Shown: positions 72-6,613 of the stretch, piece by piece | How the letters are laid out: each line of letters starts with the position of its first letter | Numbering within the stretch: position 1 is the stretch's first letter | Source of the DNA: Vulcanisaeta sp. MG_3 | GTDB lineage: Archaea > Thermoproteota > Thermoprotei > Thermoproteales > Thermocladiaceae | NCBI GenBank assembly: GCA_001516765.1 | Contig: LOCH01000164.1 | Location: forward strand, 1 to 13,172 | Direction of reading: 5' to 3' | Length of the DNA: 13,172 bases | Made by a program: the position numbers and the translations under genes | Notes under the pieces: model-generated | What the model was told of the DNA's origin: nothing | Database searches by the model: none | What the model saw: the letters and a program-made list of their open reading frames with translations, nothing else

Positions 72-1055
72 ATGTCAGTTAAGATGATAGATATAACCAG
101 TAAGGAGCCCGTCTATAGGGAAGCGGTGGCCAGGGGTTTCCTCAAGGTTGATGAGGATACAATGAGTGATTTAATCAATAACGGTGTTAGCGGTCTTGGT
201 AATGCTGCATCAATAGCGAAGATTACGGCAATAAATGCCGTGAAAACCGCGTGGAGGTACATACCACTCCTCCACCCAATACCCATAACCTACGTGGAGG
301 CTAGGGTTCATTATGAGAAGGATGGCATTGAAATGGCCGTACTAGCTAGGACAAGGGCACAGACCGGTGTTGAGATGGATGCCTTGTTTGGATTGTTCAC
401 GGGACTCCTGGCTGCCTGGAACACGATCAAGGGTTGCAGCAGGACATGCACCCCTGAGTGGGTCACCAATTTCATGGGTAAGAAGGTGCAAACCTGCGGC
501 TCAAGCCGTGTTGACGGTATGTTCGATATAAGGGTTGTTAATAAGGTCAAGTCTGAGGATAGTGTTGGTCTTGGCATTGAGGATTTCGTGGACAATGCCA
601 ATGGGCCGCCAATCGTTACAATGTTCGATGTAACCACGGAACCCACGTACTACGGTGAAGCATCGGCTAAGGGATTCATAAGGCTTAGGGAGGAGACCGT
701 GGAGCTCATTAGGCAGGGTAAGGTTGAGAAGGGTGATGTAATCACGGTTTCTAAGACGGCTGCAATAGTGGCTGCCAAGAAGGCATGGGAGATATTACCC
801 CTCGTGCATCTAAACTACCTGACATACGTCAATGTGGATGCTAGAGTTATTGAGGATGGCGTCGAAATCGCTGTCGACACGCGCAATGTGTCTAATACGG
901 GTTCAGCCATGGAGGCTGTGTTCGCCACGGGTGTGGCATTACTGACTGTTTGGGATATGGTTAAGAAATATGAGAAGGATGAGAAGGGTCAATACCCCCA
1001 TACCGTGATTAGGGAGATTAAGGTGTTGAAGGCTTTGAAAACTCCAGCTGTTTAA
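72..1055 (+). CDS. moaC: Tandem double-domain MoaC (cyclic pyranopterin monophosphate synthase)
   Basis: MoaC converts 3',8-cyclo-7,8-dihydro-GTP, made by MoaA, into cyclic pyranopterin monophosphate for molybdenum or tungsten cofactor. Single-domain MoaC is about 160 residues; this 327-residue protein carries two copies, roughly residues 5-160 and 184-320. Each copy has the opening MIDIT or MFDVT strand, the helix before the LLHP or LVHL segment, and the TG(V/S)(E/A)M(D/E)A helix. In E. coli numbering, copy 1 keeps R26 (R16), H77-P78 (H68-P69), E112 (E101) and K131 (K120), but has L42 for K51 and N117 for D128. Copy 2 keeps K51 (K220), H77 (H246), E114 (E281), D128 (D295) and K131 (K298), but has G195 for R26, L247 for P78 and A279 for E112. 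Copy 1 also has an insert with cysteines 122, 126 and 142. The GGKSG tail is absent. Family assignment is firm; activity as a pseudo-dimer is inference. Confidence 0.9.
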   Translation: MSVKMIDITSKEPVYREAVARGFLKVDEDTMSDLINNGVSGLGNAASIAKITAINAVKTAWRYIPLLHPIPITYVEARVHYEKDGIEMAVLARTRAQTGVEMDALFGLFTGLLAAWNTIKGCSRTCTPEWVTNFMGKKVQTCGSSRVDGMFDIRVVNKVKSEDSVGLGIEDFVDNANGPPIVTMFDVTTEPTYYGEASAKGFIRLREETVELIRQGKVEKGDVITVSKTAAIVAAKKAWEILPLVHLNYLTYVNVDARVIEDGVEIAVDTRNVSNTGSAMEAVFATGVALLTVWDMVKKYEKDEKGQYPHTVIREIKVLKALKTPAV

Positions 1056-1903: not shown

Positions 1904-2584
1904 ATGATCGAGAGGGCAATGGAATTGTTAAGGCAGGGTAAGATCATATTCATACATGACTCAGACGATAGGGAGAACGAGGTCGATGCCGTGATAAGGG
2001 CTGATTACGTAACACCATCAGTAATAACCTGGATGAGGCACAGGGCCGGCGGTCTTATATGCTTCGTTACTGAGGACTCGATAGGTAGACAGTTGGGACT
2101 TCAATTCATGAGTGAAATGCTTCGTAATGTGGGCTTTGACGGCCTCGTTAAAAGACCTAGTTATGGAGATGATCCGGCGTTCTCCATATACGTAAATCAT
2201 GTTAAGACAAGGACGGGGATTAGGGATAGGGATAGGGCGATGACTATAACGAGGCTCGCGGAAATAGTAAAGATGGTGATAGATGGAAAAGTTAACGAGG
2301 CAAGGAAGGTATTTTATGAGGAGTTTTACGCACCAGGTCACGTACCAATACTACTCGGTAGAGTCGGACGTAGGTTTGGTCACACGGAGCTTTCGTTAAT
2401 ATTAGCTAAATTATCTAATGTACCACCATCCCTCGTCATAGTCGAGATGCTGAGTGATGATGGTGGAGCAATGGCTAAAGGTGATGTTGAGAATATAGCT
2501 AAATCACTTGGTACCGTGGTTGTGGATGGTGATGAAATAATAATGAGGGCCAAGGTAGAGGGTATAATTAATAGTACACCTTAA
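1904..2584 (+). CDS. ribB: 3,4-dihydroxy-2-butanone 4-phosphate synthase
   Basis: RibB converts ribulose 5-phosphate to 3,4-dihydroxy-2-butanone 4-phosphate and formate, supplying the four-carbon unit of riboflavin, in the cytoplasm. The 226 residues match a stand-alone RibB domain with no GTP cyclohydrolase II fusion. Visible motifs in order are DDRENEVD at 21-28 (metal and substrate acidic loop; E24 and E26), TGIRDRDRAMTI at 104-115, PGHVP at 144-148, the catalytic-region GHTEL at 159-163 and an E181 segment followed by DDGGAMA. Bacterial enzymes usually read ENEGD where this has ENEVD, a mild difference. The ATG at 1904 is preferred because an upstream ATG at 1896 runs into a stop after three codons. 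Neighbours are the divergent nucleotidylyltransferase and cren7, both with their own promoters, so no operon is indicated. Confidence 0.93.
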   Translation: MIERAMELLRQGKIIFIHDSDDRENEVDAVIRADYVTPSVITWMRHRAGGLICFVTEDSIGRQLGLQFMSEMLRNVGFDGLVKRPSYGDDPAFSIYVNHVKTRTGIRDRDRAMTITRLAEIVKMVIDGKVNEARKVFYEEFYAPGHVPILLGRVGRRFGHTELSLILAKLSNVPPSLVIVEMLSDDGGAMAKGDVENIAKSLGTVVVDGDEIIMRAKVEGIINSTP

Positions 2585-4353: not shown

Positions 4354-4788
4354 TTAATGAACCTTAACCCTAATCCTGTATAGCCTTGATAATGCTTCCT
4401 CCAGTGCCCTGGTTTCGTCAGGGAAATTCTCGAGACCCAAAACCTCACCGGAGTTTATCATGTCATTAACCCACCTGCACTCCTTAGATATTAGTACCTC
4501 GCCAGTGTTTGGGTTGTAGAGTAGTGGGTACATTTTACAGGATAGTGGTTTCATGGAATGTATCGTGCATGCCCTACTCTCCTTATCGTAAAATGGGCAG
4601 TAACCCTTAATCAACCACCTATAAACCCTGACACCATTGATTGACAACTCACGATACCTAATTTCGAAACCCCTATTTTTAGCTAGCGTTTTAACTCTTG
4701 TTAATTCCTCTTCAAAGAGTATTGGGCCCCTCTCCTCATTATCAAAGTAACAGCACTCATCGCACCTAAGGCACTGAAACAACTTCAT
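4354..4788 (-). CDS. YkgJ-type CxxCxxCC metal-binding protein
   Basis: This small cytoplasmic protein belongs to the YkgJ/UPF0153 family, thought to bind zinc or an iron-sulfur cluster through a cysteine cluster; the role is not known. In its 144 residues the N-terminus reads FQCLRCDECCYF (C6, C9, C12, C13). The second half has the family signature: C64-P, C74, H77, P81, C84 and Y87-P88, with a further C104. The gene follows the IF-2B-like gene with a one-base overlap (TAATG), so the two are translationally coupled. A GGTGA motif 6 bases before the ATG is the one clear Shine-Dalgarno site in the window, as expected for an internal cistron. The family assignment is firm; any enzymatic role, and any partnership with the IF-2B-like protein, is inference. 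Confidence 0.85.
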   Translation of the reverse strand: MKLFQCLRCDECCYFDNEERGPILFEEELTRVKTLAKNRGFEIRYRELSINGVRVYRWLIKGYCPFYDKESRACTIHSMKPLSCKMYPLLYNPNTGEVLISKECRWVNDMINSGEVLGLENFPDETRALEEALSRLYRIRVKVH

Positions 4789-5648
4789 TATTGTTCACCA
4801 AGGTTGAGTACATTATTTATGAACGCTTCCCTCAGGCTCTCAATATCCTCGGCCCTCGGTCTCTTAATAACACCAACATCGGTTATTAAGTAATCCACCA
4901 AGTCAAAGGGTACCCTATCGAACAATGGAACCTCAATTGTCATGTCACCAATGACCTCACTAACCGTGTAAACCTCACCAACACCGCCGGTTGCGGCTTT
5001 ATAGGACTCGGCAATAACTATTGTTTCAACATCGAACCTTCGGGCTGTGATGAGTAGGGTCTCCGTGCCGACCTTATTGAGGAAGTAACCATCGGCATAC
5101 AGTCCATCGGCACCAACGATAGCGTAGTCAATCCCCCTTTTAATGAAGCTCGCTATTGCTGAGTCAGGTATTGGCTTGATGGTATTCACAAGGCTTGAGT
5201 AATCACTAATAGCTTGTGAAACTTCATTACCAGGTCTTGATTCCATTATGAACAGTGATTCGAAGCATTTACCCCATTGCGCCAGTGCTGTCTTAACGGC
5301 TGAACTATAGCTAATTGTTATGGCGCTGGATCCGCATTTAATGGCATGCTTATTCAACTGCCCAACTAACCTACTCTGTATCTTTGAGTATTCCTCCTTC
5401 AACCTACTGACCACATCATTGATATTAAAGCCCCTATTAAGCGCCTGGTCAATTATGTACGCGAGGTTCGCTAATGATGCCATCCCAGGTCTAATACTCC
5501 TTAACCTATTAACCAAGGCCTTGATCTCATCCTCACCAAACCCACTGCTTAGTGCCAAACTCACTGCCTCAATGCCCTTCAGGAAATACCAAGAGGCTCC
5601 ATGAACCCTATCCTCCCTTAACTCCCTTAATAGTACGTCGATACCCAT
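4788..5648 (-). CDS. IF-2B alpha/beta/delta-related protein (ribose-1,5-bisphosphate isomerase/MtnA superfamily)
   Basis: The superfamily includes eIF2B regulatory subunits, methylthioribose-1-phosphate isomerase (MtnA) and archaeal ribose-1,5-bisphosphate isomerase. From ATG 5648 the protein has 286 residues. Motifs in order are DRVHGAS at 13-19, a RPG-x-ASLAN segment at 53-61, ESRPGNE at 136-142, VGADGLYADG at 178-187 with D181 matching the acidic catalytic residue of the isomerases, and NKVGT at 191-195. Where isomerases carry a catalytic Cys (a THCN-like segment), this protein has ITISYSSAV, closer to the eIF2B THSYS form. A classical isomerase role is therefore doubtful. An in-frame GTG at 5696 would add 16 residues, but the TATA box would then lie inside the gene, so ATG 5648 is preferred. 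It is the first gene of an operon with the YkgJ-like gene and divergent from the DUF89 gene. Confidence 0.8.
   Translation of the reverse strand: MGIDVLLRELREDRVHGASWYFLKGIEAVSLALSSGFGEDEIKALVNRLRSIRPGMASLANLAYIIDQALNRGFNINDVVSRLKEEYSKIQSRLVGQLNKHAIKCGSSAITISYSSAVKTALAQWGKCFESLFIMESRPGNEVSQAISDYSSLVNTIKPIPDSAIASFIKRGIDYAIVGADGLYADGYFLNKVGTETLLITARRFDVETIVIAESYKAATGGVGEVYTVSEVIGDMTIEVPLFDRVPFDLVDYLITDVGVIKRPRAEDIESLREAFINNVLNLGEQ
4795..4799 (-). promoter_or_regulatory. Shine-Dalgarno site of the YkgJ-like gene
   Basis: The minus strand reads GGTGA, then six bases, then the ATG at 4788. It lies inside the end of the upstream coding region and fixes the start of the second cistron. The other genes here seem to be leaderless and show no such motif. 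Confidence 0.7.
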
Positions 5649-5674
5649 TATACACCATATCGAAGATAAAGGGG

Positions 5675-5684
5675 TTATTAAAAA
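5675..5684 (-). promoter_or_regulatory. TATA box of the IF-2B-like operon
   Basis: TTTTTAATAA on the minus strand is centred about 31 bases before ATG 5648. It argues against the longer GTG start at 5696. Confidence 0.5.
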
Positions 5685-5742
5685 CTCATTCCGCACGGCT
5701 TATGATGATGACGTGGTTAATCATACTAAATAATTACTACCA

Positions 5743-5754
5743 ATATATTTATTA
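5743..5754 (+). promoter_or_regulatory. TATA box of the DUF89 gene
   Basis: ATATATTTATTA is centred about 29 bases before the ATG at 5777, with no Shine-Dalgarno motif between. The 128-base gap at 5649-5776 thus holds two divergent promoters. Confidence 0.6.
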
Positions 5755-5776
5755 ACTAACTATTTATCAATCGCCA

Positions 5777-6613
5777 ATGCTATATATAGAAGTCCCCGAG
5801 TGCATACTATGTGCCCTGGAATCAAGAATGCAGGAGATCAAGAAGTTTGGGGTTAATGATGTTAATAACTACATGAGAATATCGATGAAAATTTCGGAAT
5901 TAATACCGAGAGGAAGAACCCCACTCTTCATCGAATCATTCGAGGAGATCATGCGAATACTAAATAATAATGACCCCCATGCGAAGGAGAAGGTAGAGCT
6001 AGAGAACGTGGCCTCATCAATACTACATAGAGTTATTGAAAATGCTGGTGATGATATAACCAGGTACTTCGAGATAGCTGCTGCGGCTAATTCCGTGGAT
6101 GTCCCAATGAGGGATTATCAATTCGACATAGATGATTTCGTGAATAAATTGCTCGAGGATGCCGTTTGGTTAGGTATTTCTAAGAATAAACTGGGTGAGT
6201 TATTGGGTAGCGTAAGGAGTGTGGGTTATGTGGTCGATAATTCAGGTGAATTTCAAATAGATGCTCTATTAATAAGGAGGTTGGTTGACGTCGGCATCAA
6301 CGTGACTGTTTACGCCAGGGGTTTACCCTACGAGGTTGATGTTACGGCAGATTATGTAAGTAAGGTGCTTAATAATACCAATGTTAAAGTCGTCTCCACA
6401 GGCACTAGGTACCCAGTATTTTATAATAGGAGCCTATTAGGGAACCTTAAGGAGCATGATTTAGTGATCTCTAAGGGGGTGGGCAATTTTGAGGCCTACT
6501 TGGAGAATAACCTAAACTTAAAGGTTCTGTTTCTATTCAGGGCTAAGTGCGGACCCATGATTAGGATGCTTAGGGTCCCCAAAAATAGCCCTGTTATCTA
6601 TTCCACACTCTAA
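5777..6613 (+). CDS. DUF89 family metal-dependent phosphatase-like protein
   Basis: DUF89 proteins are metal-dependent phosphatases; studied members act on fructose phosphates, phosphopantetheine or other metabolites and are seen as damage-control enzymes. The 278 residues are typical of the archaeal single-domain form. Visible features are C9 and C12 near the N-terminus (ECILC), a helical cap with AAAANSVDV at 101-109, the metal-site strand YVVDNSGE at 151-158 (D154, N155), EVDVT at 186-190 (D188, where many members read NDVT), DLVISKGVGNFEAY at 228-241 (N237, E239) and the KC at 258-259 of the last active-site loop. The substrate cannot be told from the sequence. It is transcribed alone, divergently from the IF-2B-like operon. 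Because that superfamily acts on sugar phosphates, a shared metabolic theme is possible but unproven. Confidence 0.87.
   Translation: MLYIEVPECILCALESRMQEIKKFGVNDVNNYMRISMKISELIPRGRTPLFIESFEEIMRILNNNDPHAKEKVELENVASSILHRVIENAGDDITRYFEIAAAANSVDVPMRDYQFDIDDFVNKLLEDAVWLGISKNKLGELLGSVRSVGYVVDNSGEFQIDALLIRRLVDVGINVTVYARGLPYEVDVTADYVSKVLNNTNVKVVSTGTRYPVFYNRSLLGNLKEHDLVISKGVGNFEAYLENNLNLKVLFLFRAKCGPMIRMLRVPKNSPVIYSTL

Follow-up and report, generated by a model that had tools for sequence, protein, structure and literature searches.

A tandem MoaC from Vulcanisaeta with one canonical composite site and a second site probably selected for another role

Introduction

MoaC turns 3',8-cH2GTP into cPMP, and two of its residues, K51 and D128 in E. 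coli numbering, are essential for this chemistry. The canonical enzyme (PF01967; TIGR00581) is represented by structures from E. coli (PDB 1ekr) and Sulfolobus tokodaii (PDB 2ohd), and two further entries hold, according to their titles, the E. coli K51A variant with 3',8-cH2GTP (PDB 4pya) and the D128A variant (PDB 1eks). For MoaC2 of M. tuberculosis, the available text of one report (PMC3602415) describes GTP positioned through superposition with the T. thermophilus complex, where its contacts are K62, D137 and K140 in chain A and H88 in chain B; these are the ligand residues named there, together with Leu60 in a docking. By motif and spacing, K62, D137, K140 and H88 correspond to K51, D128, K131 and H77 of the E. 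coli protein. The chain assignment in that text covers H77 and K51/D128/K131, and the roles of R26, E112, M113 and E114 were assigned here by pattern.

MoaC is also found in longer chains. In the MoaC–MoaB and MoaD–MoaC fusions (NCBIfam NF002947), the partner is another Moco protein and not a second MoaC. Examples seen in this work are a 235-aa MoaD–MoaC protein (P0039; PF02597 and PF01967) and two loci of family f8 (L011 and L013), in which a single MoaC with Asn in place of P78 is followed, in frames of 304 and 311 aa, by a C-terminal part that is MoaB-like by eye. The self-fusion of MoaC is already in print: a survey of archaeal fusions and fissions (PMC11237513), the only clearly relevant prior description found in a search of the open-access literature, reports MoaC fused to itself on several occasions (cluster 625.1) and suggests frameshifts in syntenic blocks for these cases. 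They are likewise MoaC–MoaC proteins of archaea, and the part of the survey at hand discusses neither a residue partition nor a second site.

Here, we describe such a tandem from the heat-loving archaeon Vulcanisaeta sp. MG_3. It is like canonical MoaC in fold, with the canonical residues split over one composite site (site 1), and it differs in consisting of two fused copies that have between them a single canonical site, not two, in having Asp for E114 in its first half and in the rebuilding of the second, mirror-image site (site 2). The tandem, the residue partition, the reciprocal loss between lineages and the purifying selection were computed directly. From these comparisons, we consider it probable that the MoaC of this archaeon is a pseudo-dimer whose two sites differ, site 1 being canonical and site 2 selected for another job.

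Results

Organisation of the tandem gene

The window, that is, the whole stretch of DNA analysed, is an entire contig of 13,172 bases from a genome that is 54.6% complete. Its first complete gene is a single ATG-initiated ORF at 72–1055 (+ strand), which encodes 327 aa and is matched twice by PF01967 (84–449 at 94.2 bits and 621–1031 at 126.7 bits; cut-off 27), as expected from the original prediction of a fused MoaC tandem. The whole-protein scores lie above the curated sequence cut-offs of the MoaC family (PF01967, 216.7 bits against 27; NF008999, 269 against 171; TIGR00581, 214.7 against 141.5), and the AF2 model of the tandem has the MoaC fold (pLDDT 91.4, pTM 0.92). The nearest named relatives are Vulcanisaeta proteins, with 85% to that of Vulcanisaeta sp. 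JCM 14467, and the genus names used below are taken from named proteins. An assembly or frameshift artefact is ruled out: 39 genomes, some of them single-contig, carry the tandem as an uninterrupted frame. In some other genomes, the tandem frame is interrupted or in pieces (G002, G020, G035 and G039): that of G002 (L032; L093) is broken, and that of G039 (L054) has an in-frame TGA within the match, both possibly due to sequencing errors.

Alignment and residue-retention counts delimit half 1 at approximately residues 1–165 (72–566), followed by an inter-domain linker, placed by alignment at about residues 166–182 (567–617), and by half 2 at about residues 183–327 (618–1052), all on the + strand. 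Residues were placed by alignment to E. coli MoaC 13–136 and by the points at which helices begin in the predicted model. In half 1, R16, L42, H68-P69, E101, M102, D103, N117 and K120 occupy the positions of R26, K51, H77-P78, E112, M113, E114, D128 and K131, respectively. In half 2, the positions of R26, K51, H77, P78, E112, M113, E114, D128 and K131 are taken by G195, K220, H246, L247, A279, M280, E281, D295 and K298. The helix starts align L42 with K220, three residues before helix α2, and N117 with D295; the MAFFT alignment sets a Gly, not L42, opposite K51, which is non-Lys under both alignments. The partition proposed from the sequence is thus reproduced by alignment: half 1 lacks K51 (Leu) and D128 (Asn) and keeps R26, H77-P78 and E112, and half 2 keeps K51, D128 and K131 and lacks R26 (Gly), P78 (Leu) and E112 (Ala). 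The proposal had omitted the retention of K131 by half 1 (K120) and of H77, M113 and E114 by half 2 (H246, M280 and E281).

The canonical composite site

For comparison, 49 tandems (from 39 genomes and 10 database proteins) were split into halves and aligned with 12 single MoaCs and the E. coli protein. Left out were G002, whose frame is broken, G020, which is in two fragments, and G035, whose frames are split; G013, G016 and G042 gave no MoaC match. Apart from six divergent tandems, here called Conexivisphaerales-type and treated below, half 2 keeps K51 in 43/43 tandems and D128/K131 in all 42 with residues there (one row being truncated), and half 1 keeps H77, P78, E112, M113 and an Asp at position 114 in 43/43, with R26 kept in 40 of the 41 that have a residue at that position. 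Half 2 thus has the chain A set (K220, D295 and K298) and half 1 the chain B set (R16, H68, P69, E101, M102 and D103), so that one whole canonical site can be assembled in the tandem, with one half providing K51/D128/K131 and the other H77. A dimer with two equivalent canonical sites is not seen, as the second site lacks K51, D128, R26 and E112.

One composite canonical site per chain, as originally proposed, is therefore a well-supported reading of the sequences, as is the proposed course of duplication and fusion with complementary specialisation afterwards, the same partition being present in 43 tandems. By analogy, the halves would pair, within a chain or between chains, as in the MoaC dimer. 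Site 1, with K220, D295 and K298 given by half 2 and H68, E101, M102 and D103 (Asp for E114) given by half 1, would be active and would turn 3',8-cH2GTP into cPMP, as in MoaC. Chance or decay of the gene is ruled out by the recurrence in 43 tandems and by dN/dS values of 0.04–0.09 in three pairs (the window and two Vulcanisaeta copies); rapid decay, which together with a separate complete MoaC would have spoken against the original prediction, is not seen.

Distribution, origin and Moco gene context

The class survey covered MoaC matches in 81 genomes, many of them incomplete. The same fusion recurs in 42 of them: the matches indicate tandems in 23/25 genomes of the window's family, in 18/19 of family f2 (probably Thermoproteaceae) and in one of family f7. 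The f2 frames are of about 250 aa and, in most g5 genomes, PF01967 by itself detects just one half, the second showing against the window protein. Another 27 genomes with a match have a single MoaC or pieces of one (fragments in G312 and G361), and 12/81 have no MoaC match. A separate moaC was found in none of the 42 tandem genomes; since the window genome is only 54.6% complete, this negative rests on the others, within a set in which many genomes are incomplete. The tandem is thus the only MoaC found in the tandem genomes of the class and, as with canonical MoaC, moaA is present.

In a quick tree of 88 rows, which left out 14 near-duplicate or partial tandems, 35/35 first halves lie on one side of a branch (support 100) and 35/35 second halves on one side of another (support 62, weak). 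Because first halves group together and second halves group together, a single duplication origin fits the sequences, and independent fusions were rejected on the same grouping, weak as it is for the second halves.

Regarding the gene context, moaA scores above the family cut-off in five nearly complete genomes (G004, G007, G010, G011 and G012), and a shorter match is present in G000 (at C10; 295 bits, below the 325 cut-off). It lies on the same strand as the MoaC match, 6 to 1,182 bases away, in nine genomes (G030, G033, G034, G035, G040, G041, G043, G044 and G048), and moeA is directly upstream of the tandem in Thermocladium (L094). The tandem of family f7 (L034, in G048), which is outside the window's order, is the one 6 bases from its moaA match; its half 1 keeps R26/H77/P78/E112 and its half 2 K51/D128/K131, and it lacks the site 2 signature described below. 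Molybdopterin-enzyme domains (PF01568) are present in four of the five nearly complete tandem genomes (G004, G007, G010 and G011), and a search for PF01568 found none in G012, of the Caldivirga group. Because the canonical set is whole, moaA is present and PF01568 domains occur in four of these five genomes, site 1 is most likely, as judged from sequence, the cPMP synthase of the cell.

The mirror-image site

The remaining positions would form a second pocket, to which half 1 contributes in the chain A role (L42, N44, N117 and K120) and half 2 in the chain B role (G195, H246, N248, S278, A279, M280 and E281). Two segments of half 1 belong to it: a GLGN loop (residues 41–44; 192–203, + strand), in place of the K51-G-D motif, and a W-N-x-x-K motif with a three-Cys loop (residues 115–148, with C122, C126 and C142; 414–515, + strand). 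At the position of this loop, half 2 carries a loop of the canonical type, YEKDEKGQYP.

In Vulcanisaeta, Caldivirga and Thermocladium, site 2 is marked by its own invariant signature, formed by GLGN, WNxxK, the three-Cys loop, H-x-N and TGSAME. G41, L42, G43 and N44 are invariant in the 16 rows of these genera and in all six Conexivisphaerales-type rows, and G-L-G-N, W-N-x-x-K, E-P-x-Y-x-G, L-P-L-x-H-x-N and T-G-S-A-M-E are invariant across the six Conexivisphaerales-type and seven window, Vulcanisaeta, Caldivirga and Thermocladium proteins. By analogy with the MoaC dimer, these motifs include positions that would line the other pocket. The Cys-rich loop follows the N117/K120 helix in all 25 site 2 tandems, with three Cys in 24 and two in P0033, against 0 or 1 Cys in the corresponding loop of the 24 other tandem rows.

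With K51 and D128 replaced, MoaC chemistry is unlikely at site 2. Half 1 would give it the GLGN loop, N117, K120 and the Cys-rich loop, and half 2 would give H246, N248 and S278-A279-M280-E281. In such a pocket, H246, E281 and K120 would be leftovers of the canonical site, and N44, N117, N248, S278, the glycine-rich loop before the helix and the Cys loop would be additions, a composition that would suit another ligand, possibly phosphorylated and possibly with a metal.

Conexivisphaerales-type tandems

A sequence search found six further tandems (P0028–P0033), which are 37–41% identical to the window protein and partly share the D-N-x-x-G-P-P stretch of its linker. They represent six database clusters, to which a word-filtered second protein search added none, and they are the whole sample of proteins with site 2 only. 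We infer the order Conexivisphaerales from their names (P0029, Conexivisphaera sp.; L086, Nitrososphaerales archaeon; L087 and P0032, Thaumarchaeota archaeon). In a tree that left out G008 and G023, and in which the outgroup f2 is not on one side of a branch (three rows fall on the wrong side), this clade groups as the sister of Vulcanisaeta, with support values of 98/92, and its branch measures 1.57 changes per column. Its position beside Vulcanisaeta on such a branch suggests horizontal transfer and long divergence.

At least three of 20 genomes of that order match the tandem (G402, G403 and G405), with a search model that could miss a weak one, and 19 have a MoaC match of 129–164 bits, the exception being G402, which comprises 0.6 Mb. 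A normal MoaC is thus also present in two of the three genomes with the tandem, in one of them within a Moco gene cluster. In G405, about 74 kb lies between the tandem and the separate moaC on a single contig of 1.59 Mb, which makes contamination unlikely there. This moaC encodes YR, PKGD, FCHG, TGVEME and WDMVK, that is, the canonical residues, and it adjoins MoaA (PF06463 and radical SAM) at L123:5240–9874, with MoeA_N and further MoCF_biosynth genes around. The Conexivisphaerales-type copy lacks canonical catalytic residues and is very unlikely, from its sequence, to be a cPMP synthase. The simplest account would be that the cell had a native MoaC, which made site 1 dispensable, and that site 2 was the part of use to it.

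Reciprocal loss between lineages

Canonical MoaC numbering was used to define eight active-site positions for each site, and residue retention was counted per group, leaving out G003, G008, G023 (partial), P0027 and P0044. All 16 positions are invariant in the 16 Vulcanisaeta, Caldivirga and Thermocladium rows. The six Conexivisphaerales-type rows keep 8/8 positions of site 2, 1/8 of site 1 and 31/81 other conserved positions: K220, D295, K298, H68, M102 and D103 are absent from 6/6 rows, R16 is kept in six and E101 in two. With positions taken as independent and the six rows having one common history, Fisher tests give P 0.0014 for site 2 versus site 1 and 0.0009 for site 2 versus background, and site 1 does not differ significantly from background (P 0.25). 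The reciprocal pattern is found in the 17 rows of family f2, which keep 8/8 positions of site 1, 1/8 of site 2 (E281) and 24/81 others, with A279 kept in 8/17. Site 1 is also kept in five more rows (f1 g3, f7 and P0034; R16 in 4/5), which have no consistent site 2. Two residues break the clean split, R16 in the Conexivisphaerales-type rows and E281 in family f2; kept by nearly all tandems, they may serve structure or both sites. One 302-aa tandem, P0027, looks intermediate, with N128, K131, G26, H77 and TGCALE present and GLGN and the Cys loop absent.

These counts bear on the original suggestion that, of the two sites, only the composite canonical one works, its mirror image being simply dead. 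The absence of K51, R26, D128 and E112 from site 2 is in keeping with it, and a dead second site does suit family f2, where the erosion of site 2 next to an intact site 1 shows that the former is dispensable for the latter. However, site 2 carries its own invariant signature in three genera, the window's included, and it is the one of the two sites that the Conexivisphaerales-type proteins retain; a dead site should not outlast a live one. For the window, we consequently find a dead site unlikely.

It is quite unlikely, too, that the residues of site 2 are conserved solely for folding, dimer contact or hexamer assembly. The LIPLCHQ loop that bears H77 does join the dimer contact of MoaC, according to the available text of PMC3602415, but the f2 tandems have lost every site 2 residue except E281 (and A279 in 8/17) with site 1 still conserved, and the replaced catalytic positions and the co-occurring Cys loop look like a pocket and not like a need of the fold.

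The Conexivisphaerales-type copy might also be a horizontally acquired gene in decay, the common motifs being leftovers. Site 1 is lost in it, the K51 and QYP loops are deleted and its PF01967 score is only about 50 bits. Nevertheless, the gene is under purifying selection (dN/dS 0.14–0.22 in three pairs; the value in one Caldivirga pair is 0.13), its predicted model is well folded (pLDDT 85.8, pTM 0.89), and site 2 is kept in full in all six sequences against the 31/81 background given above, which together make decay highly improbable. A separate, selected function of site 2 is most likely on this sequence evidence.

Possible roles of site 2

Site 2 would be kept by selection for another job, probably to bind or convert a related ligand, and the Cys loop may carry a metal. 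That the site has a function would follow from the pattern of conservation, and the roles considered here are candidates. In a PDB fold search, looked at twice, nothing except MoaC stood clear.

The neighbours of the tandem vary by genus: an NTP transferase and a DHBP synthase in Vulcanisaeta, moeA in Thermocladium, and an aldehyde dehydrogenase, an FAD oxidase and a thiamine-binding-like protein in the Conexivisphaerales-type loci. In the window and 13 named loci (save L092 and parts of L091 and L093), no neighbour was seen common to all site 2 genera, and gene neighbours were accordingly rejected as a guide to the function. The DHBP synthase gene (PF00926; window 1904–2584), two genes downstream of the tandem, was seen there in Vulcanisaeta loci only. 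Further along the window (4354–6613), genes for a CxxCxxCC protein, an IF-2B-like protein and an ARMT1-like phosphatase lie together, and they have the same order in L089 and L090. The thiamine-binding-like gene (L086:10830–11150, with PF01910; L087:10877–11299) is convergent with the site-2-only tandem, and its product presumably belongs to the YkoF/MTH1187 family. YkoF of B. subtilis (PDB 1s99), counted here as one of the nearest known systems, was likewise one of the fold matches.

A narrower form of the preferred explanation, in which our confidence overlaps with that in the broader one, is that site 2 binds a ligand without catalysis, in a regulatory or carrier role, and holds, for example, the product of MoaA or cPMP. 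Phosphate-binding loops are often glycine-rich and ahead of a helix, and the glycine-rich GLGN sits before helix α2. The K51 position of site 2 is non-Lys, and the K51A variant of E. coli MoaC holds 3',8-cH2GTP (title of PDB 4pya). On the other hand, substitutions also affect D128, R26 and E112, which may prevent the canonical ligand from fitting, and none of the five scanned neighbours of the L086 tandem is a moa gene. We regard non-catalytic binding as a genuine possibility, short of an even chance. Somewhat more doubtful is the proposal that site 2 is a new active site, in which a pocket of the MoaC fold with a metal or cluster on the three-Cys loop would carry out a non-MoaC reaction; the protein would then be bifunctional in Vulcanisaeta, Caldivirga and Thermocladium, and the Conexivisphaerales would have acquired it and stripped it to the new function.

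Discussion

Homo-oligomeric enzymes with sites at their interfaces are common. In the MoaC tandem, two such chains became one, with one site retained and the other remodelled, probably for another job, and lineages later differed in which of the two they discarded. The tandem pattern predicts the chain role of each MoaC active-site residue. The three natural classes of protein, with both sites, with the canonical site only and with the new site only, amount to a double dissociation, which makes the sites separable for study. Finally, the finding singles out the uncharacterised Conexivisphaerales-type protein, one example of which is annotated as MoaC.
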